A stretch of 64,000 nucleotides of DNA from Salinibaculum litoreum (lineage in GTDB: Archaea > Halobacteriota > Halobacteria > Halobacteriales > Haloarculaceae). Position numbers and translations under genes: made by a program. Under the pieces are notes generated by a model. The model did not search any database and had not been told where the DNA came from. It was given only the letters and a program-made list of their open reading frames with translations. The stretch covers positions 186,001 through 250,000 of the forward strand of contig CP046867.1 in assembly GCA_009789175.1 (NCBI GenBank), in the 5' to 3' direction. Positions 4,155-13,067 of this stretch are shown here, one piece after another (within the stretch, counting starts at the first letter, position 1; each line of letters begins with the position of its first letter).

Positions 4155-5546
4155 TTAATCGTCGTGGTCATGGCCTTCCATTACCATCGGGTGGCCGGTG
4201 GCGTATTCGTCAGGGTCCTCTTCGAAGGTTTCCTTGCAGGTCTGTGAGCAGAAGTAGTACGTCTTGCCGTCGTGGGTCGCCGCTGGTTCGCTGTCGTCAG
4301 TCCGCATCCCACAGACGGGGTCACGGTACTGGCCGGGCGCACCCAGGCCGCGACGATAGACGTACAGGAGAAAGCCCGAAAGCGCGAAGGCGATGATGTT
4401 GAGATAGAACGTGTAATTGAGTTCGAAGTACGTCTGCTCGGTCGCCGTCTCGCCACCTGCCAGATCTGGAACGATCCCCAGGGCGTCGAACAGCAGTTCC
4501 ATGAGGAAGCCGGTGAACGCCATCGTGACGAAGAAGACGCCGAGGATGTACAGCATGATCTTCCAGCCGTAGTACTTCCGGTAGATGTTCAGGACGGGAA
4601 TCGTGATGAGGTCGGCGTAGACGAACGCGATGACGCCCGCGAAACTGATGCCGCCGCCCCAGAGCGCAACGGCGAACGGGACGTTGCCCATGCTGCCGAC
4701 GAAACTGAGGACGGCGATGGCGACGCCCATAATCGCGTTCTCGGCAGTCACGAGAAGCCCGTCGCCCTGAATGAACAGGGTATTCCACACCCACTGGGGA
4801 ACGAAGACGATGACGAACCCCGAGATCAGGAAACCGGCGATGACGTCTTTCCAGATCATCGACCACTCCTTACGGTACTGGTTCCCGACCTTGTACCAGC
4901 CACCCCACGAGAGCAGCTCTTCGCGCCACCCGCCACGGCTCGATGTCTCCTGGCGGTAGGTCTCCATACACCCCTTCGAACAGAACTTCAGCGTCTCACC
5001 GCCATCGGTGGTGAGCGTGTACTCGTCTTTGCCTGCCATCCCGCAGGTCGGGTCCTCAGTGACGCCCGACTCGTGATCGCGCTCGTTGAGCGTCTCTCGT
5101 ACCTCGTCGAAGAGATTCTCCGGGAGCGTGAGATGAACGATGACGGCCATCACGGCAATGAGAATGAGCCCGCCAAGTAACTCTGCGACGAGGAACTCCC
5201 AGCCGAGCAGAATTAGAATCATCAATCCGAGTTCGACGATGAGATTCGTCGACGCGAACATGAACGCGAGGAAGTTCACCGCGTGCGCTCCCTTCTTGAA
5301 CAGTCCTTTTCCGATGGCGACAGCGCCGAAACTGCAGCCACTACTGGCCGCGCCGAACGCAGTCGCCTTGGTGAGTCCGCTTAGGTCCCCGTTGCCCAGC
5401 ACCTGTGCCATTCGCTCTTTTGAGACGTAGACCTGGACGAGACTCGTGATCGTGAGCCCCATGATGATCGCCCAGGCTGCCGTCCAGAGGAAGCCTAAAC
5501 CGATACGTAGAGCTTCGAAGATACCATCAATCATTGTCGCCACCAT
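4155..5546 (-). CDS. DUF318-type permease with two YHS metal-binding domains
   Basis: The 463-residue product is a permease of the DUF318 (ArsP-related) kind with about eight to ten helices. The first half has FGAASSGCSFGAVAIGKGLF, carrying the Cys seen in this family, and the second half has SFVGSMGNVPFAVALWGGG. A YHS domain is inserted between the halves (residues about 165-200, DPTCGMAGKDEYTL then FCSKGCMETY) and another sits at the C-terminus (about 405-445, DPVCGMRTDD then YFCSQTCKETF). It ends in a His/Asp-rich tail, EGHDHDD. YHS domains bind heavy metals in copper ATPases and mercury proteins, so metal or metalloid export is the best guess. It is divergent from the SHOCT gene at 5727. 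Confidence 0.88.
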   Translation of the reverse strand: MVATMIDGIFEALRIGLGFLWTAAWAIIMGLTITSLVQVYVSKERMAQVLGNGDLSGLTKATAFGAASSGCSFGAVAIGKGLFKKGAHAVNFLAFMFASTNLIVELGLMILILLGWEFLVAELLGGLILIAVMAVIVHLTLPENLFDEVRETLNERDHESGVTEDPTCGMAGKDEYTLTTDGGETLKFCSKGCMETYRQETSSRGGWREELLSWGGWYKVGNQYRKEWSMIWKDVIAGFLISGFVIVFVPQWVWNTLFIQGDGLLVTAENAIMGVAIAVLSFVGSMGNVPFAVALWGGGISFAGVIAFVYADLITIPVLNIYRKYYGWKIMLYILGVFFVTMAFTGFLMELLFDALGIVPDLAGGETATEQTYFELNYTFYLNIIAFALSGFLLYVYRRGLGAPGQYRDPVCGMRTDDSEPAATHDGKTYYFCSQTCKETFEEDPDEYATGHPMVMEGHDHDD

Positions 5547-5712
5547 GGTATCATTTCGAAGGGATCATCTATTGCAGTTTTCCTTTAGATGGTTCGGGAT
5601 AGAGCCGTGGTAAGTAGGAATTCAAAAGAATAGCGGTGGACAGAACACACAACTCAAAAGCACAACCGCATTGAATAGTTAGTGCGTAGTATTAGTTGAA
5701 ACCCACACTCAC

Positions 5713-5717
5713 GGAGG
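5713..5717 (+). promoter_or_regulatory. Shine-Dalgarno sequence for the SHOCT gene
   Basis: GGAGG lies nine bases before the ATG at 5727. It supports that start and a leadered transcript, unlike several leaderless genes elsewhere in the window. Confidence 0.6.
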
Positions 5718-5726
5718 GATCACAAT

Positions 5727-6098
5727 ATGCCTACAAGCTCAGACGAGACGCGACTTGTTACACTTCTCCTCGTTATCACCGGCGCCGTCATCATTTTACC
5801 CATGTTCTTCATGGGCTTCGGGATGATGGGGTTCGGTCCAATGATGGGCGGGATGTGGGGAGGTCACATGTGGGGCGACGGGACGATGCCTGGCTGGATG
5901 TTCGTCGTCGGCATCGTGATGCAGATCCTGTTCCTTGCCGCCCTCGTCGGTGGTGGGTACCTCATCTATCGCGGGATTACTGGGGATGAGAGTGACTCAG
6001 ACCAAGCACTCGAAGAGCTTCGGCTCGCCTACGCCCGCGGAGACTTGACCGACGAAGAATACGAACAGCGCCGCGAAGCACTCGAACGAGACACCTGA
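5727..6098 (+). CDS. Met-rich membrane protein with C-terminal SHOCT domain
   Basis: The product has 123 residues. Two hydrophobic segments, about 12-30 and 55-82, flank a loop rich in Met, Gly and Trp with His (FGMMGFGPMMGGMWGGHMWG), a composition common in copper-contacting proteins. The end, LRLAYARGDLTDEEYEQRRE, is a SHOCT motif, a short oligomerisation module. The start is backed by GGAGG nine bases upstream. It is divergent from the YHS permease and followed 23 bases later by a membrane protein, so a shared metal-response role is plausible but not shown. Confidence 0.85.
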   Translation: MPTSSDETRLVTLLLVITGAVIILPMFFMGFGMMGFGPMMGGMWGGHMWGDGTMPGWMFVVGIVMQILFLAALVGGGYLIYRGITGDESDSDQALEELRLAYARGDLTDEEYEQRREALERDT

Positions 6099-6121
6099 TC
6101 ACGACCAGACAAAGTTGAACT

Positions 6122-6760
6122 ATGCCCGGTTTCTCCGATCACCGTCAACAGTCGACCCGTCCGCAACTTCCAGCATGGCTTGACCGATACACGACGCTCG
6201 GACTGTACGGGCTTCTCGTCGGGACGGGTCTCTGTTTGGTCGCGTTCCTCACGAATCCAGTTCCCGATCCCTCCTTTCCGTGGGCGACGCTTCCTGAGTC
6301 ACTACGGCTGCCGATTGCACAGCCTCGGATCGAACACTGGCCGGTGACCTACACTATTGGTATCTGGCTGTGGGTCTTCTGCTTTCCCGCGCTCTTCCTC
6401 GCTGGATACCAGCGATACGGCGACCTAGATCGTGGGACAGCAATGTGGCTCGTTGAGTTGCCGACCGTCGCGATGCTGGGTTGGACCACGTATTGCCGGT
6501 TCTTCTGGCCGAAACTCCATCCACCGACCTGGAACGCCCCGGCCTACACGTTCGTCTGCTGGCTGTACTGTTCGACCTACGACACCATTTGGAGCAACAC
6601 AGCGTTCCTGATTGCGCTTCTCGGCGCCGTAACCACGATTATGATCCTGCAGCGAACACGCAGAACCAAGTACGCACTCATCGGGTTCGGCATACTGGCC
6701 CTCCCTCTCGGCCTCCCTGCCCTCTACGAGGGAGCCCGACGAGCAAGAACTGAGAGCTGA
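6122..6760 (+). CDS. Haloarchaeal five-to-six-helix membrane protein of unknown function
   Basis: The 212-residue product has hydrophobic segments at about 28-48, 85-105, 115-130, 140-155, 158-178 and 185-200. A conserved core reads NAPAYTFVCWLYCSTYD and the C-terminus reads LPLGLPALYEGARRA. I cannot assign a family function. The same C-terminal 75 residues recur as a fragment at 52754-52986 beside another integrase tail, so this gene type travels with these elements or has been duplicated with them. It lies 23 bases after the SHOCT gene and converges on the integrase remnant. Confidence 0.7.
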   Translation: MPGFSDHRQQSTRPQLPAWLDRYTTLGLYGLLVGTGLCLVAFLTNPVPDPSFPWATLPESLRLPIAQPRIEHWPVTYTIGIWLWVFCFPALFLAGYQRYGDLDRGTAMWLVELPTVAMLGWTTYCRFFWPKLHPPTWNAPAYTFVCWLYCSTYDTIWSNTAFLIALLGAVTTIMILQRTRRTKYALIGFGILALPLGLPALYEGARRARTES

Positions 6761-6770
6761 CTTCGGTCGT

Positions 6771-7109
6771 TCAGCCCTGGGATCGTGGTTCGATTTCGTC
6801 AAGTGCCTCTGTCGCCACATCTCCAAGTTCACCGGCCTCGATATGTGAGTACCGCTCACGAACCATCTCCTCCGAATTATCGAGATACCGGGCTGCCACC
6901 GTATACCCGAACGCGCGGACAAGCACCTCTCCCGTCCCTCGGCGACCGCCGTTCGGATCAAGGTAATTGTGTTTCGGATGATCGATATCGATCTCTGCGG
7001 CCTCTGAAAGGCGCTGGAGGATCGATCGTGCGCCGTCCGTCGTGATCGGCGGCGGCCGAATGTCCTCATCGATGGAAAGCAGGTGACGACGGGCATCCGT
7101 AAACTCACG
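6771..7109 (-). pseudogene. Tyrosine recombinase (integrase) C-terminal remnant
   Basis: The minus frame reads SIDEDIRPPPITTDGARSIL, then PNGGRRGTGEVLVRAFGYTV and MVRERYSHIEAGELGDVATE, the catalytic C-terminus of a haloarchaeal phage-type integrase. The nucleophile Tyr is kept in RERYSH. The HxxR box, HGGR in the copy at 51768, is NGGR here, so the catalytic His is lost. A TGA (7110-7112) closes the frame upstream and the N-terminal half is absent. The closest relative in the window is the fragment at 51768-52343. Confidence 0.8.
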
Positions 7110-7127
7110 TCACATCGGTAGTACGTC

Positions 7128-7455
7128 TTGCTGGCTACTCCGAATCTCTCTGCTCAGGGGAAGACACCCGCTCAGACAAGGGACATCTACGAGTACTACA
7201 AATCCGTGGCGGAGGAGTGCGGACGAGATCCACTCACTCGATGTGGAACCCACGAACATCTGCTCGAAATGTGCGATAACGGTATTCTCAAGAACGCGAA
7301 TCGAGTCAGCGGGACGTGGGCGACCGAACAAATACAAGCTTGACACGCCCCTTGAAACCGTGATTGATGTATTAGAACAGGAAGAGGACAGCGAAATCGG
7401 AAATCTCGATAATCTACGTGAACAAGCAAATCAGCAGACTACGCGTACTGAGTAA
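7128..7455 (+). pseudogene. Orc1/Cdc6 replication initiator, C-terminal winged-helix remnant
   Basis: One frame gives NLSAQGKTPAQTRDIYEYY and SVAEECGRDPLT; after a frameshift at about 7310 the next frame gives RGRPNKYKLDTPLETVIDVL and an acidic tail to the TAA at 7455. This order matches the winged-helix domain that follows the AAA+ module in haloarchaeal Orc1/Cdc6 proteins. The AAA+ part is missing and the helices between are scrambled, so it is dead. Beside the integrase tail it points to a lost plasmid or provirus. Limits are approximate. Confidence 0.62.
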
Positions 7456-7718
7456 CTTGGAAGCCGTGGAACGGGTAGAAGCGCTAGTGAGCGATTTTTC
7501 TTTACGTACGATGGAAATTGTGGGGGGTCATTGACTTAAAGGATGGAACGACTGGTTGGGTTGGAAATATAGGGCTGACGTACGTCAGACACTGGGTGGA
7601 AGTCGGGGAATGTTCGTTTAAATACCTGAAAGAGTCGGTCAGCAGCGGTATTCCTGCCCTCAGCCACGCTACCCCAAACTACGCTGTGTGGATTTAGACG
7701 AACTGGCAAGTATAGTCC

Positions 7719-8759
7719 CTATCCAAATGTCTCAGCAGGCCCAAACACCCACGGTTGAGTCACGTCTTGCATTGCTGCGGAGAGCATCTCATCGTGGTCA
7801 TTACCGTATCGATCCCGACGGTAGGCGTTTCCGATAACCGGAATTGACTCTTGGAGGACAACAGGCGCAATGTTTTGAGCTTGGTTTCTCCACTCACACG
7901 AGAATAATGAGGCATATCCAGCTGCCTGTCCAAACGCTTTCTGGAAGTCACGTGTTGAGGTCTTAGTAGCACTATTCTTTACTTCGACAACGAACCAGGA
8001 ATCATCCATCTTGATAATCATATCCGCGATAACTGATTTACCTGCATTATACAGTACTCTGCCAACTGGAACCTCACAGAAGACTTCAACATCTGCCTCG
8101 TTATTCGAGATCCACTCAACGAAACTTCGAGCGAGCTCATCTTCAGCAGGGCTATTGAGTGATTGCTTGCTGTTACGTGATATCCATGATGTGAGTTGCG
8201 GTCGCTGTGTATCGACTGGCGGGCTCACATCGTACATTCCTCTGCCATACCACTGCCCCCCTGCATAGGCTTTGACATCGATTCCAAGAGCCTGACAGAC
8301 AGCGAGAAGGCGAAGATCCTTCGGTCGAATTTTTTCGACGATTATCCGTTGCTCTATCTTCCCAACTGATTGTTTGGGCCGATAGATGGTCTTCCCGTCC
8401 TCGCCAGTGTCTGGATAGACGTGATGCTCAAACGTGCTCACCTGGGTTTTTGAGTCCCAGTAGCCACCGTTTTCAGTGGCCTTCTCACGAACGATCGAGC
8501 GGTCTCGGGGGAAGAGGTACGAATACTGGAGAATCTGTCCGATAGCATTGAAATTCAACCCCGGTATTTTTGCCTCTACAAGGATTACATCACCTCCTCT
8601 TGGAGGTTCTGCGAGTAGATCTATACTATAGCCTAGAATCCCGGCGGAGCCCTGAACTGTCTCGTACTGTCGCTGTACGCAGTTTCCTGTGGGATACTCG
8701 TCTTCGTACGGTTCAGATTGATGCTCGATGTACGCGTCAATGAGTTCGACTTCATTCAT
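7719..8759 (-). CDS. Orphan protein with two PD-(D/E)XK nuclease-like domains
   Basis: The 346-residue product appears to contain two related modules. Module one (residues about 40-100) reads GYSIDLLAEP, then VILVEAKIPGLNFNAIGQIL and QYSYLF. Module two (about 235-295) reads VIADMIIKMDDSWFVVEVKN, then FQKAFGQAAGYASLF. Each has the Asp before a hairpin, the E-x-K signature and a following helix with GQ and a Tyr, as in PD-(D/E)XK nucleases with a QxxxY-type helix. I cannot name the family. The gene is divergent from an unknown gene 112 bases away and sits between mobile-element scars, which suits a defence or restriction role; that is inference. Confidence 0.68.
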   Translation of the reverse strand: MNEVELIDAYIEHQSEPYEDEYPTGNCVQRQYETVQGSAGILGYSIDLLAEPPRGGDVILVEAKIPGLNFNAIGQILQYSYLFPRDRSIVREKATENGGYWDSKTQVSTFEHHVYPDTGEDGKTIYRPKQSVGKIEQRIIVEKIRPKDLRLLAVCQALGIDVKAYAGGQWYGRGMYDVSPPVDTQRPQLTSWISRNSKQSLNSPAEDELARSFVEWISNNEADVEVFCEVPVGRVLYNAGKSVIADMIIKMDDSWFVVEVKNSATKTSTRDFQKAFGQAAGYASLFSCEWRNQAQNIAPVVLQESIPVIGNAYRRDRYGNDHDEMLSAAMQDVTQPWVFGPAETFG

Positions 8760-8871
8760 GGATGGAGTAGGAGCGGCACCCGCCTACGGGTTATCGGTTA
8801 CTGCGAAGTATGTGCATCGGATTCTCCCAAGGCACCTGTATCTCTAAGTATCACTAGTAACATTTCAGGAC

Positions 8872-9417
8872 ATGGATCATCCGTCGGTTGAATTCAAACT
8901 CCCACTCGACGACGGTTATCATCGATTCAAAGTACCACGAAATACGACGCTGTTTTTCTGGGGGGCCATTGCACCAGGTACTCTGGAGCGCATTGCTCCG
9001 ATCGATACCCGTCGCGGTAGCCATCAGTTTATGGCGCTTTGCGAGGCTGAAAAGCGTATCTCGTGGTCACTCTGCGTGGAAGACGATCCGACGTCCCTTG
9101 TTTCAGAGATTTATAGAGAGAAAGGGTACAAGGGATTAGCTTGGTGGATCGCCTGTAATCCCCTGGAGTTACCAACATCTTTGGTAGTTCAGTTTAGAAC
9201 AGAGGGCGATCAACCGACGGTAGAGGGAGAGCCAGTCGTGCTCTGGACCGAGCAGGGGGAGATGGTCCCCTGGGGGACGACCGTCGAGAGTACGATGGAA
9301 CTCGTACCGTCATCTTCACAGGTGACGCAGTTCCCGACTCGGCGCGAAAGTCTGTGGGACCGCCATAAAGTGTACGTACCACTTCAACAACCGACCACTG
9401 AGGAAGTTCATGGGTAA
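8872..9417 (+). CDS. Unknown soluble protein, divergent partner of the two-domain nuclease-like gene
   Basis: The 181-residue product is acidic and has no membrane segment or signal peptide. Readable landmarks are SVEFKLPLDDGYHRFKVPRN near the start, a Trp-rich centre (ISWSLCVEDD, LAWWIACNP) and a basic, Pro-containing end. I do not recognise a domain. It begins 112 bases from the start of the nuclease-like gene on the other strand, so a shared regulatory region is likely. Start at the first ATG. Confidence 0.55.
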   Translation: MDHPSVEFKLPLDDGYHRFKVPRNTTLFFWGAIAPGTLERIAPIDTRRGSHQFMALCEAEKRISWSLCVEDDPTSLVSEIYREKGYKGLAWWIACNPLELPTSLVVQFRTEGDQPTVEGEPVVLWTEQGEMVPWGTTVESTMELVPSSSQVTQFPTRRESLWDRHKVYVPLQQPTTEEVHG

Positions 9418-9463
9418 CCAACGCTCAGATAGAACCGGACTTACTGTTGGTTAAGTAGTAGAA

Positions 9464-9628
9464 TTACATCTCGCGGTTGATCTCGAACTTTCGCATCGCT
9501 CGTTCAAATACGTCAGGATGTCGATGCGCGATGTTCTCGAGATGGTTTCGAACCGATTGCACGGCATCGACGTCGATATCTTCCGTGTCTTGCAGTTCAC
9601 GCCAGAACTGATGCATTTCTTCGCTCAC
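9464..9628 (-). CDS. Small helical protein, probably the 3' end of a gene cut by the IS element
   Basis: The 54-residue frame reads SEEMHQFWRELQDTED then AVQSVRNHLENIAHRHPDVF and ends NREM. It looks like two amphipathic helices. The first possible start, a GTG at 9628, lies exactly against the IS boundary at 9629. Either this is a complete small gene starting there or, more likely, the GTG is an internal Val codon of a longer gene whose 5' part was displaced. No function is assigned. Confidence 0.5.
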   Translation of the reverse strand: MSEEMHQFWRELQDTEDIDVDAVQSVRNHLENIAHRHPDVFERAMRKFEINREM

Positions 9629-10365
9629 GGCACTGTCTAGCCAAAGAGCGAACAGTTCTTAGAGACGGATGTTATGACCGCGCAAGAACTGTTCACCGTC
9701 TCTCTGTAACCGAATCCGCTTGAGTGTTGGGACGACGAGAGCACCGCGAGCGCCCTCAGAGCGCTCGCGGTGCGGCTTCATTCGACAGGAATTTCACTTC
9801 GTGAGACGACCGCCACGTTGGAGCAATTCGGCGTGATCCGGTCACATCAGGCGGTATGGCAGTGGGTTCACCGCACGGCGGAGCATGTGCCAGACCCGCC
9901 GACGGCGAAGCCGTCGCGGGTCGATGTCGACGAAGCTGCAGTGAAAATTGGCACAGTACAGCGCTGGCTGTCCGCCGCGATCGATGTCGAGACGAAACTT
10001 CTGCTCGGTGCAGTCGGATCTGAGCGGCGTGGAACCGATCCAGCTGCCGAGTTTCTCGGCCGACTGGCCGAGAAACACGACTTCTCTGAGACGACGTTTC
10101 TCGTCGACGGAATGGGCTATTTGACCGCGCTCGCGCGGTACGATCTGCGCGGCCACCTCGACTACGTCGAGCGGAATCTGATCGAAAAGTGGTTCCAGAC
10201 ACTTGCGATGCGGATCGACCGCTTTCATCAGACCTAGATGGGCGGTAGCGCCAGCGCACAGCGCTGGTTCGCCGCCTTCGTCTACTACTATAATTTCCAG
10301 CGACCGAATCAAGCGCTCGACGAACGCCTGTCGAGGAGGTGCAAAACTGTTGACTAGACCGTGCC
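9629..10365. mobile_element. IS6-like insertion sequence, copy alpha-1
   Basis: The element is bounded by GGCACTGTCTAG at 9629-9640 and CTAGACCGTGCC at 10354-10365, an imperfect terminal inverted repeat. It is 737 bases long and holds one degenerate DDE transposase on the plus strand. No matching 8-base target duplication is visible: TCGCTCAC on the left, TATAACAG on the right. Related but shorter-matching copies are at 16879 and 23363. Confidence 0.75.
9722..10357 (+). pseudogene. IS6-family transposase, interrupted by in-frame TAG
   Basis: The frame has an HTH region (TLEQFGVIRSHQAVWQWVHR) and DDE residues in RVDVDEAAVKIG, TFLVDGMGYLTAL and MRIDRFHQT. A TAG at 10235-10237 replaces the conserved Trp after HQT; the frame then continues MGGSASAQRWFAAF to a stop at 10355-10357. 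The N-terminal end is also degenerate, with a stop upstream of ECWDDEST. Confidence 0.8.
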
Positions 10366-10394
10366 TATAACAGTATAATATTCTATCATATAAG

Positions 10395-10553
10395 ATGGAT
10401 AGACGGAAATTCCTGACCAGTGGAATATGTGTCGGAGCGATTTCAGCGGCTGGTTGTGTGAGTTCTCCCCGCGGTAAACTACCCCGCCCTACTCCCTCGC
10501 TCCCGCAGTACGCTCGCTCGGTCCTTGAGGCCGGGGCCTCCGCGCTACCATAG
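10395..10553 (+). pseudogene. Lipoprotein N-terminal remnant fused to unrelated DNA
   Basis: The 52-residue frame begins MDRRKFLTSG and reaches ISAAGC, a twin-arginine-like signal and lipobox typical of haloarchaeal lipoproteins. Immediately after the Cys the sequence changes character (SSPRGKLPRPTPSLPQYAR) and stops. The DNA there, including the inverted repeat GCGG/CCGC around 10473-10489, resembles the transposon-end segments that follow TnpB-type genes in haloarchaea. The simplest reading is a lipoprotein gene truncated by such an end. Complete function is unlikely. Confidence 0.45.
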
Positions 10554-10604
10554 GTGAACCGCTCTATGGCATCCTAGGCACGCAAACCAACAGAGTGAGA
10601 GGCT

Positions 10605-10733
10605 TCAAGTAGCCAATTCGTCTAGCGCGTCTCGGTGAGACCGAACGGTTGCCGGTGAGATATCTGCGACCTCAACGACTTCTGACTGCGTGAGACACTG
10701 GGCTCGTTTCCACAGACCCAGTTGGCGAAGTCT
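10605..10733 (-). pseudogene. TFB-like C-terminal helix-turn-helix remnant
   Basis: The frame reads RLRQLGLWKRAQCLTQSEVV, then EVADISPATVRSHRDALDEL and a TGA at 10605-10607. The LTQSEVVEVADISPATVR pattern matches the last helices of archaeal TFB, and resembles the remnant at 1284-1439. It is joined to HsdS-like DNA with no gap, so a deletion or recombination brought the two fragments together. Another HTH family is possible. Confidence 0.42.
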
Positions 10734-11165
10734 TGTGAAGTCGCCATCGGTTCGCTCATGATACCCGAAAAGCCGACCGATGCGGTACGCGAGAGGAAGA
10801 CTGTACTCTCAGGAAGAAGATGTGCCCCGGAATTTTCCATCCCGAGTTTGCTGATCTGGTGCTCGGTTTCGTAGAGATAGCGCTTGCGTCCTTCACGGAA
10901 CGACTTGATGTGGGAGGTCGTGACCCACGGAATGTCGGTGTCCTCCCAGTACTCGTCATTAGAGTGGTCGGGAGTGTGGCTAGAGTGGAGTTCAGCGACA
11001 AAACGGGTGCGGACGACATCCCAATGTTTGGGAACCTGGCCTACCCAGTCCCCCGGAATCGATGAATTCAACGGGTGATAAACTTCCAGTCGTACTCTGT
11101 TTAATCAGTGTCTTCCGTTTCTCCTGAAGGTGGTCTAGCTCTGTCTGCCCGCTGCTGGTCGCGCA
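10722..11165 (-). pseudogene. hsdS: Type I restriction specificity subunit (HsdS) remnant
   Basis: From about 11165 one frame gives the helical spacer ELDHLQEKRKTLIKQ that follows a target-recognition domain. After a frameshift, a second frame gives the start of a recognition domain: GDWVGQVPKHWDVVRTRF, then IPWVTTSHIKSFREGR, ESTVFLSRTASVGFSGIM and MATSQDFANWVCG. The sequence then breaks into the TFB-like tail. Only about a third of a normal HsdS (roughly 400 residues) remains and no HsdM or HsdR is nearby, so the system is lost. Confidence 0.72.
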
Positions 11166-11290
11166 TTGACTGACGTGATCTCTGACTGAACCTCCCGGTC
11201 AGGGAACCGTTTTTCCAGGCGAACGTTGCCAGGATTGGTTGATCTTTCTATTAGATCTTATTTATGTACATAGAATGTTCCGACACGGAA

Positions 11291-11299
11291 GTTTAAGTA
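11291..11299 (+). promoter_or_regulatory. TATA-like element for a leaderless small gene
   Basis: GTTTAAGTA is centred about 30 bases before the GTG at 11325. This is the spacing expected if transcription starts at or next to the start codon. Confidence 0.5.
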
Positions 11300-11324
11300 A
11301 AATTGTGTTGGTTCTGATCATAGA

Positions 11325-11477
11325 GTGACGGAACAGAATGAAATAGGGGAGGAAGATGGGGACGATCCGACCACGAGGACGGTCCACTGTCCGAACTGTG
11401 ACATGGTTCGTGAAGTGCGCGTTACGGTCCCGTGGCAGGATGATATCTGCTTGCAAGGTGGGGAGCCCGTCCAGTAA
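11325..11477 (+). CDS. Small acidic protein with one CPNC motif
   Basis: The 50-residue product starts at a GTG (MTEQNEIGEEDG) and has HCPNCDMVREVRVTVPWQDD followed by a further Cys (DICLQ) and a TAA. It resembles the small CxxC proteins abundant in haloarchaea, many of which bind zinc, but only one full CxxC knuckle is present. A TATA-like element at the leaderless distance supports the gene. No function is known. Confidence 0.5.
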   Translation: MTEQNEIGEEDGDDPTTRTVHCPNCDMVREVRVTVPWQDDICLQGGEPVQ

Positions 11478-11933
11478 GTCGCTCCAGATCGAGTCCAAGA
11501 AGCGGACGTCCGCTCAAGACGCCGACCCGTCGGACCGGACATCCGACGATCAAGATTCGACTGGGAAACGCAGTCACCGTGACAGTAACTCCTCACTCGA
11601 GTAGTCTCGATGTCTGTCCAAGAGTAGCTCATCAGACCCCGCACCGTGGATAGCTGTCTTCTCCCAACAACCTTTCAAGCCTGTCTCAGTGATGACTTCG
11701 ATAACTGCTCGAGCGAGGAGACCCACATTTACCGAACCCAACGAATGTTCGTTCGTAGCGCCCATTTTAGTTTTGCATGCGAGATGTGGATTCTCTCGAA
11801 GGACCCGTACACGCGGTCGTGACACCCGCACCGAGGCTATCAGGATTTGTCGAACTCCGAGTAACGTCAGCCACTCGAAGCACTCAATGTCACGAGAAGA
11901 TACTCTTTTGAACACCAAGAGGAATGTAGCTGC
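11478..11933. other. Intergenic stretch without a supported gene
   Basis: Several open frames cross this 456-base stretch but none has a recognisable domain or convincing composition. A minus-strand frame at 11574-11768 (MGATNEHSLGSVN onward) is the best of them and remains unsupported. It probably holds decayed DNA and the promoter of the glycosyltransferase. Confidence 0.4.
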
Positions 11934-13067
11934 ATGGCGCGACACTCTAAGATGCGGATTCTCCTCTGCTCAGATTACCTCCCACCGAGCGACGGTGGTG
12001 TCGAGCAAGTAGTACAGAAGCTTGCCATGCACCTTATTGAAGAAGGATACGAGGTGGGGATTTTTACGCTGAATGATGGAACTCGTAAGTTCGACTTACA
12101 GAACAATCCTGATATCTCGTTCTATACGGCTTCGGCGATTGATCTCACCGACACGGTTGGCCTGCAAAGCATGTTCTCCTTGTCGGCGTTGCGGGAGTTC
12201 AGACATGTGTTGCAAGGGTTTCAGCCAGATGTCGTACACGTGCATAACCGGTTCTTTTACACCTCAGCGCTGGCTGCCCTCTACTCACTTCGCGCGGAAT
12301 ATAAGCTGGTGACGACACTTCATCTCGGCGACATTGGGATGATATCCGGAGTTGGAGGTGCCGCCGCGCGGACCTTTGAACAGACAGTGAGCCGGTTCGT
12401 CATCTCGCGGAGCGACCAAGTGATTTGCGTGAGTTCGGCTGCCGAGTCGATTGCACGATCTCTCGGAGCGAAACGAACCGCAGTGATTCGGAACGCTGTC
12501 GACATTGAGGAGTTTTCCCCAGTTCCCGCCAAGAAGAAGTCGCTGCTGTACATCGGTCGCCTCGTCCGAAACAATGGCATCCAGGACTTGCTCAGCGCAC
12601 TTCCGGGAGTATTAGAAGCACATCCAGACGCGGAGGTCCACATCGTCGGAAATGGGCCCCTCGAAGCGGAGGTATACAAGTCGATTCGGGTAGCCGGGCT
12701 TTCGGACTCAGTAACTGTCTACGACTACGTGCCGGACATTTCCGAGATGTACGACCGCGCGAGCGTGTTTTGCCGGCCGTCGTATTCAGAAGGCCTTCCG
12801 CTCACAATGCTCGAAGCGATGGCGTCCGGAGTTCCGCCTGTTGTCACAGCCATCGCAGGTGTACCCGAAGTCGTCACCGACCGCAAAACGGGGGTCCTGC
12901 TGGAACCTAGACAGTCTGATAAGATTGAAACGGCAATCGTCGAGTTGTTCAAGGACGAAACGTTCCGGGCGGAACTCGCCAAGAACGCGCGCGAGTACGT
13001 CGCCAATAACCTGACGTGGGAGCAGCGAGCACGAGAAGTCAGCGACGTGTATCAAAACGTTTTCTGA
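11934..13067 (+). CDS. Glycosyltransferase, GT4 family
   Basis: This 377-residue GT-B enzyme has the N-terminal loop YLPPSDGGVEQVVQKLA, with the Gly-rich turn. VVHVHNRFF and VTTLHLGD follow in the acceptor half. The C-terminal half has LLYIGRLVRNNGIQDLLSAL, then VYDYVPDISEMY and SEGLPLTMLEAMASG, the E(x7)E donor-binding motif. It would transfer a sugar from a nucleotide donor to a lipid-linked or glycan acceptor at the cytoplasmic face. An internal ATG six codons in (11952, MRILLC) is an equally good start. It is followed 65 bases later by a phosphatase-fold enzyme and probably opens the glycan cluster. Confidence 0.9.
   Translation: MARHSKMRILLCSDYLPPSDGGVEQVVQKLAMHLIEEGYEVGIFTLNDGTRKFDLQNNPDISFYTASAIDLTDTVGLQSMFSLSALREFRHVLQGFQPDVVHVHNRFFYTSALAALYSLRAEYKLVTTLHLGDIGMISGVGGAAARTFEQTVSRFVISRSDQVICVSSAAESIARSLGAKRTAVIRNAVDIEEFSPVPAKKKSLLYIGRLVRNNGIQDLLSALPGVLEAHPDAEVHIVGNGPLEAEVYKSIRVAGLSDSVTVYDYVPDISEMYDRASVFCRPSYSEGLPLTMLEAMASGVPPVVTAIAGVPEVVTDRKTGVLLEPRQSDKIETAIVELFKDETFRAELAKNAREYVANNLTWEQRAREVSDVYQNVF

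Follow-up and report, generated by a model that had tools for sequence, protein, structure and literature searches.

A duplicated RecB/Cas4-type nuclease-like protein with catalytic-type residues in both modules, and its linked partner gene, on a haloarchaeal plasmid

The DNA analysed here, called the window below, is a stretch of 64,000 nucleotides from contig CP046867.1 of Salinibaculum litoreum. Near one end it carries the gene of P0001, a nuclease-like protein, and divergent from it, 112 bp away, the gene of P0002 (Table 1). The original prediction had seen in P0001 two segments that each hold an Asp, an E-x-K and a GQ..Y stretch, and both are present in the 346-residue translation: residues 61-64 read VEAK and 258-261 VEVK, residues 74-83 read GQILQYSYLF and 277-286 GQAAGYASLF, and the Asp preceding E-x-K is D47 in module 1 and D246 in module 2. 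Two segments were thus rightly recognised, and only their spacing, put earlier at about 190 residues, was slightly short, as it measures 197-203 between equivalent residues.

Table 1 Features of the P0001/P0002 locus, with positions counted in the window
Feature	Position	Strand	Basis or remark
P0001, 346-aa tandem RecB/Cas4-type PD-(D/E)XK nuclease-like protein	7719..8759	-	Translation, conservation, profiles
Catalytic motif of module 1, residues 47-79 (D47, E62-x-K64, G74-Q75, Y79)	8523..8621	-	Conservation, hhalign against module 2
Module 1 E21 codon	8697-8699	-	Invariant in six family members
Catalytic motif of module 2, residues 246-282 (D246, E259-x-K261, G277-Q278, Y282)	7914..8024	-	Conservation, PDB 4ic1 profile match
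Module 2 E229 codon	8073-8075	-	Invariant in six family members
Upstream region common to divergent P0001 and P0002, 112 bp	8760..8871	.	Sequence, coordinates
P0002, 181-aa partner gene	8872..9417	+	Homologues adjoin nuclease-like genes elsewhere
Remnant with Orc1/Cdc6 C-terminal winged helix	7128..7340	+	Pfam Cdc6_C 1e-7; context
IS240-type DDE transposase remnant	9770..10234	+	Pfam DDE_Tnp_IS240 1.1e-4, below cutoff; context
Partial type I R-M specificity (HsdS-like) gene	10622..11068	-	Pfam Methylase_S 1.7e-6; context

The divergent gene at 8872 and the mobile-element remnants around P0001, both of which had been pointed out before, are indeed there, and the partial R-M specificity gene lies about 1.2 kb beyond P0002. 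Repeats around the gene pair amount to short two-copy matches and imperfect inverted repeats only, and no RNA family was matched in positions 5000-13000. The contig of the window (G000:C2 in our numbering of genomes, G, and contigs, C; 316,107 bp) is 99.7-99.9% identical to the Halostella pelagica plasmid unnamed2 (CP040680.1, 316,071 bp) over the 50 kb that were compared, namely window positions 1-25000 and 39001-64000. The second 25 kb match in two pieces across about 33 kb, which indicates some insertion or rearrangement. The same plasmid DNA is therefore carried by genomes placed in two different families, and this sharing may reflect either a transfer in the very recent past or culture or assembly material common to both.

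Homologues of P0001 were found in 4 of the 391 genomes of the class by genome search and in 5 of them with a five-member profile. One family search (matches in 2 of 125 genomes) added a further member, G429, another (2 of 148 genomes) returned already known homologues only, and tblastn against plasmid records gave homologues in 5 of 72,556. The window copy is identical in H. pelagica unnamed2, a second family copy lies on H. pelagica unnamed1, and further members with intact motifs occur in G219, G164, G429 and on pHS1 of Halobacterium salinarum R1 (OE_RS14835). The six proteins that were aligned (the window copy and those of H. pelagica unnamed1, G219, G164, G429 and R1) are 31-70% identical and share 49 invariant alignment columns, among which are E21, D47, E62, K64, Q75 and Y79 of module 1 and E229, D246, E259, K261, Q278 and Y282 of module 2; the D, E and K that had been singled out earlier are thus kept in both modules of every member. 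The closest pair of homologues bears the mark of purifying selection (dN 0.19, dS 0.76). Cysteines behave differently: none is conserved in all six members, no alignment column holds more than four of six, and one member has a single Cys.

A seventh, distant relative in G174 is 18% identical to P0001 and has lost the residues in both modules. Its gene adjoins that of a protein of 743 aa which matches a CHAT protease weakly (E 0.011), the two lying at L054 4566-7924 (L numbers denote loci), and this motif-degenerate relative is perhaps a dead nuclease that has taken on the role of a sensor. Broken copies exist as well: on pNRC100 of strain NRC-1 the P0001 homologue is truncated beside ISH8C (L009 7995-9946), and on pHS1 of R1 an insertion some 0.5 kb long breaks up the P0002 homologue (L007 9672-10550), next to a full-length nuclease gene. 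Such insertion-broken copies in Halobacterium are as expected of dispensable genes. No relative was confirmed in viral contigs or in 50,697 phage records, the best phrogs match of P0001 is weak (E 0.032), and no title or abstract in the open-access literature searched describes the family. The family is, in the genomes and plasmids covered, rare and patchy in distribution, and the label of an orphan, under which P0001 had been introduced, has to give way to that of a small family with a linked partner gene.

Profile alignment of the two halves of P0001 with hhalign gave a score of 47.4 (E 3.1e-7) with the catalytic-type residues in register. The scores of 100 column shuffles did not exceed 19.4, the reversed profile gave 14.6, and the alignment of the unrelated P0002, used as a control, gave 11.5 against module 1 and a less clean 20.8 against module 2. 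The internal duplication proposed for P0001 is thereby established at the level of sequence, and because the catalytic-type residues are intact in both of the aligned halves, two active centres that arose by internal duplication are predicted in one chain. The doubled motif of P0001 also exceeds what chance would give. The strict pattern D-x(8-22)-hEhK-x(5-25)-GQxxxY occurs twice in P0001, but among 20,000 shuffled versions of the protein at least one copy appeared in 3 and two copies in 0; the loose pattern D..ExK..QxxxY appeared at least once in 806 and twice in 14 of the 20,000. With our own simple gene caller, 360 genes of at least 100 aa were predicted in 26 stretches, some of which overlap and all of which were picked around P0001/P0002 genes, so that this survey gives no true background rate of nuclease neighbours. 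Six of the 360 genes have the strict pattern doubled, all of them P0001-family proteins, and eight have the loose pattern doubled, the same six and two proteins of a second tandem family described below. At least one loose motif was present in 15 genes. Of these, 13 either belong to the P0001 family or stand immediately next to P0002; the remainder comprises the Natrialba relative of the second tandem family and a transposase-like gene of 695 aa. Judged by the shuffles and this survey, the doubled pattern of P0001 is not a product of chance; conservation among homologues and the profile alignment of the halves are, as sequence evidence, stronger than these motif statistics.

With regard to the class of nuclease, the module 2 profile has one convincing match in the PDB, 4ic1 (E 0.0011; the next has E 0.18), and the alignment runs through E, AD, ExK and Q..Y. 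We take 4ic1 to be the Cas4 protein SSO0001; its PDB row itself reads "uncharacterized protein". This identity is borne out by the D99A primer given in a passage of PMC3466216, which reads GRA-A-AIIRN against GRADAIIRN in the match. The same passage states that the D99A variant cuts no DNA, and it is with D99 of SSO0001 that D246 of module 2 aligns. The module 1 profile had no match in the PDB. A single-module protein encoded on the chromosome of the genome that carries P0001 (L038 6585-7070) matches module 1 at a nominal E of 7.6e-5, its D and ExK standing some 45 residues further apart in the alignment, and the assignment of module 1 as a nuclease module accordingly relies on module 2, on the motif and on this relative. 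In both modules ExK is followed by the invariant QxxxY (Q75/Y79 and Q278/Y282) in a putative helix. The motif order of PD-(D/E)XK nucleases that had been read from P0001 is therefore upheld in both modules by motif and conservation, and in module 2 also by the profile match to SSO0001. No Pfam match of P0001 reaches the cutoff (XisH, AHJR-like, NERD and PDDEXK_1 are all below it), and the best E values among family members are 3.3e-4 for PDDEXK_1, which three of five members match, and 8.7e-4 for HSDR_N_2. Single-sequence AlphaFold2 models were unusable, both for the whole protein (mean pLDDT 33.3) and for residues 197-316 (mean pLDDT 44.8, with the order H-E-E-E-H-E); with this poor partial model Foldseek found nothing at E 0.001 in the PDB (best kinases, E 0.32) and a best E of 0.17 in BFVD, and the best rows of VIA-align were YfiA-type proteins (Z 5.6). 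That P0001 is, by its sequence, an internally duplicated RecB/Cas4-type nuclease devoid of the conserved cysteines of Cas4 is well supported, and it probably works as the predicted RecB/Cas4-type nuclease, yet not as a Cas4.

P0002 homologues were found in 18 of 391 genomes at E 0.01, in 14 of 382 with a profile at 1e-4, and in 10 of 72,556 plasmids. P0002 has no match in Pfam, where among 16 members searched one reached E 0.075 and one 0.18, neither of them convincing, and nothing was found in NCBIfam, PADLOC, the PDB or, for P0002 itself, phrogs. A P0002 homologue adjoins five of the six P0001-family members within about 0.7 kb, with varied order and orientation, so the linkage of P0001 with the gene at 8872 extends to other haloarchaea. 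Besides the divergent pair of the window, the two genes lie on the same strand about 0.1 kb apart (L011), on the same strand with a 4-bp overlap (L010), convergently about 0.5 kb apart (L056), and on the same strand about 0.7 kb apart with one opposite-strand gene between them and P0002 itself interrupted (L007). At the sixth locus (L012, in G164) there is no P0002 in the 13.4 kb around the nuclease gene, and G164 is absent from the list of genomes that match P0002.

Seen from the side of P0002, 21 non-redundant loci were obtained after matches weaker than 1e-4 had been dropped (G317, G318, G360 and two in G264) and identical copies (G000:C2 with G053:C3, and R1 with NRC-1) and broken pieces had been merged. 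Ten of them have a nuclease-like neighbour of one of at least four types; without G429, which entered through P0001 and hence is not an independent draw of P0002, the count is 9 of 20. These neighbours are P0001-family proteins at five loci, the single-module protein at L038, the second tandem protein at L052 and HSDR_N-type proteins at three: an HSDR_N_2 gene (3.9e-8) divergent from P0002 with a CoiA-like gene beyond (L033 3321-5843), an annotated restriction R-subunit-like protein, likewise divergent and with a CoiA-like gene beyond (L051 5651-7866), and an HSDR_N_2 gene (8e-6) on the same strand as P0002 (L037). An HSDR_N-type gene and a CoiA-like gene thus stand together, divergent from P0002, in two haloarchaea. 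In addition, L011 has a PDDEXK_4 gene (E 3.2e-7) on the other side of P0002, and L056 a single-module-type remnant just downstream of it. Two loci were left out of the ten: in G339 a small frame separates P0002 from a DUF4011-helicase-MTES_1575 protein, and in G046 the HNH-like genes in the vicinity were judged by eye. The count draws on neighbours read by eye and motif scan at G149, G328, G091 and both G325 loci and scanned with Pfam at the others, and on our own simple gene caller in unannotated stretches. The 11 loci without a counted nuclease neighbour have zinc-finger-like genes (L034, L036, L040), a distant helicase-REase (L035), HNH-like genes (L045) or nothing notable. The zinc-finger gene is small, C2H2-like and upstream of P0002 (L034 6593-6802, L036 5764-5973, L040 5406-5660), with one gene between the two at L040. 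Two other proteins that resemble each other also lie near P0002 homologues in two genomes (262 aa at L044 7150-7938 and 248 aa at L042 8695-9441), and this pair is possibly a further associate of P0002.

The second tandem protein is OE_RS14750 (WP_197535912.1), encoded on pHS2 of H. salinarum R1 (L052 6850-7941) and annotated as hypothetical, which has two D..ExK..QxxxY modules. A relative on Natrialba magadii pNMAG02 (L057 5992-6996) is 36% identical to it and likewise has two such modules, with the motif residues conserved between the two proteins; no P0002 was found in the 12.9 kb around this relative. The halves of OE_RS14750 align with each other at a score of 34.9, and the best of 60 shuffles gave 26.9, a weaker margin than that of P0001. 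When the halves of the P0001 family and of OE_RS14750 were compared in all four ways, one comparison gave 22.0 (E 0.009), with its 60 shuffles staying at or below 17.2, whereas the remaining three fell within the shuffled range. OE_RS14750 lies divergent from a P0002 homologue in the same layout as the window pair, and it is thus like P0001 in having two modules in one chain beside P0002, but unlike it in that there is no clear profile similarity between the two.

The reading that we favour, with a probability of about one half, is that P0001 and P0002 form a horizontally mobile gene pair which acts against foreign DNA, such as a virus or a rival plasmid. P0002 would then recognise, mark or be triggered by the invader DNA or its replication, and would recruit or license the P0001 nuclease, and the two centres of P0001, held in a fixed relation in one chain, could cut or trim both strands without dimerising; this both-strand action is proposed by analogy with single-chain two-site restriction enzymes. 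The motif [DNS]PP[YFW] of amino-methyltransferases was present in none of the 123 predicted genes around seven family loci, a search that a cytosine-5 enzyme would escape. Classical restriction-modification is thus unlikely and was set aside, and the earlier suggestion of a restriction module has lost ground. We also entertain, more tentatively, the idea that P0002 could be the constant component of a defence or plasmid-competition system, and, with the same reserve, that its exchangeable effector nucleases would be the P0001 family, the OE_RS14750 family, the single-module nuclease and the HsdR-N-type nucleases. The doubling of a nuclease centre may have arisen twice beside the same partner, which, if true, would suggest that cleavage of the two strands has to be coupled when P0002 gives its signal.

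The same observations can be explained without any partnership, if P0002 and assorted nucleases merely gather in the same mobile islands. Varying order and orientation, the 11 of 21 P0002 loci without a counted nuclease and the remnants of mobile elements and other genes in the region all suit such a view, but a gene matched in so few genomes would hardly be expected within about 0.7 kb of five of six family members by mere gathering, and one pair overlaps by 4 bp; we therefore consider it unlikely. An antidote generally fits a single type of toxin. The company that P0002 keeps with several nuclease types is unlike this, and it weakens the reading in which P0001 would act as a DNA-damaging toxin to secure the plasmid, with P0002 as its neutralising partner, even though the two are linked plasmid genes, overlapping by 4 bp at L010, and P0002 genes without a recognised nuclease would be orphan antidotes. 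G164, moreover, has the nuclease gene and no P0002 match listed for the genome, and on pHS1 of R1 a full-length nuclease adjoins an interrupted P0002, yet that strain has another, full-length P0002 on pHS2. This reading appears quite improbable to us.

A role in DNA repair or recombination, with RecB/AddB-like end-processing for plasmid or chromosome maintenance, P0002 as an accessory and no part in defence, is a doubtful alternative as well. It draws on the PDDEXK_1 matches given above and on the closest solved relative, since a passage of PMC3466216 describes SSO0001 as a 5'-3' ssDNA exonuclease that leaves circular ssDNA uncut; fusions of RecB-family nuclease domains to helicases are frequent in repair, as stated in part of PMC5704561, and helicase genes lie near some P0002 loci (AAA_11/AAA_12 beside P0002 in L051, DUF4011/AAA in L035), as does, at L056, a gene that weakly matches Exonuc_V_gamma, some 2.6 kb away from the P0001 homologue. 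Nevertheless, P0001-family proteins carry no fused helicase, no helicase was recognised as their immediate neighbour, the distribution is very patchy, and the swapping of nuclease types beside P0002 is unlike a repair pathway. It may also be that only one module of P0001 is catalytic and that the other, with its residues kept, serves mainly in DNA binding or shape, as in Sau3AI and COG1395. A tandem PD-(D/E)XK arrangement with one degenerate copy is on record there (a passage of PMC1189080), and the distant G174 relative has lost the residues in both copies; all six motif residues are nevertheless invariant in both modules of the six members, which makes this rather improbable.

To our knowledge, haloarchaeal antiviral systems beyond CRISPR and restriction-modification have been little explored, and P0002, as the companion of several nuclease types, offers a handle for finding them. 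A nuclease with two intact RecB/Cas4-type centres per chain would be a simple and testable example of built-in two-strand cleavage, and the named homologues in H. salinarum R1 and NRC-1 put the question within reach of ordinary laboratory strains.

Compared with known systems, module 2 has the same order of E, D, ExK and Q..Y as the Cas4 protein SSO0001 of Saccharolobus solfataricus (4ic1). According to part of PMC5704561, all Cas4 family members carry four conserved Fe-S cysteines, whereas none is conserved in the P0001 family, which has two nuclease-like domains instead; Cas4 membership is ruled out on this ground. No CRISPR-cas genes were noticed among the neighbours listed at P0001/P0002 loci. 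PADLOC placed no family member in a recognised defence system and gave weak local LmuA and Cas4 matches only: the LmuA match covers residues 191-283 of P0001 and model positions 509-593 of 655 (E 3.4e-4), two of the six members match this model at E up to 1, and no LmuB-like partner was noticed among the neighbours listed. The Type IIT enzymes Mva1269I, BtsCI and BsrI have two sites per polypeptide and, as a passage of PMC4081073 puts it, generally cut both strands per binding event. P0001 resembles them in its two predicted catalytic sites per chain, but they have a recognition sequence, whereas the P0001 loci are without the amino-methyltransferase motif and module 2 is RecB/Cas4-like with QxxxY. 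With Sau3AI and COG1395, P0001 shares the tandem domains and differs in keeping the residues in both copies. Tandem PD-(D/E)XK domains as such are thus already known, and P0001 is a variant in which both predicted copies are intact; the newer part is possibly a system of exchangeable effectors around P0002.
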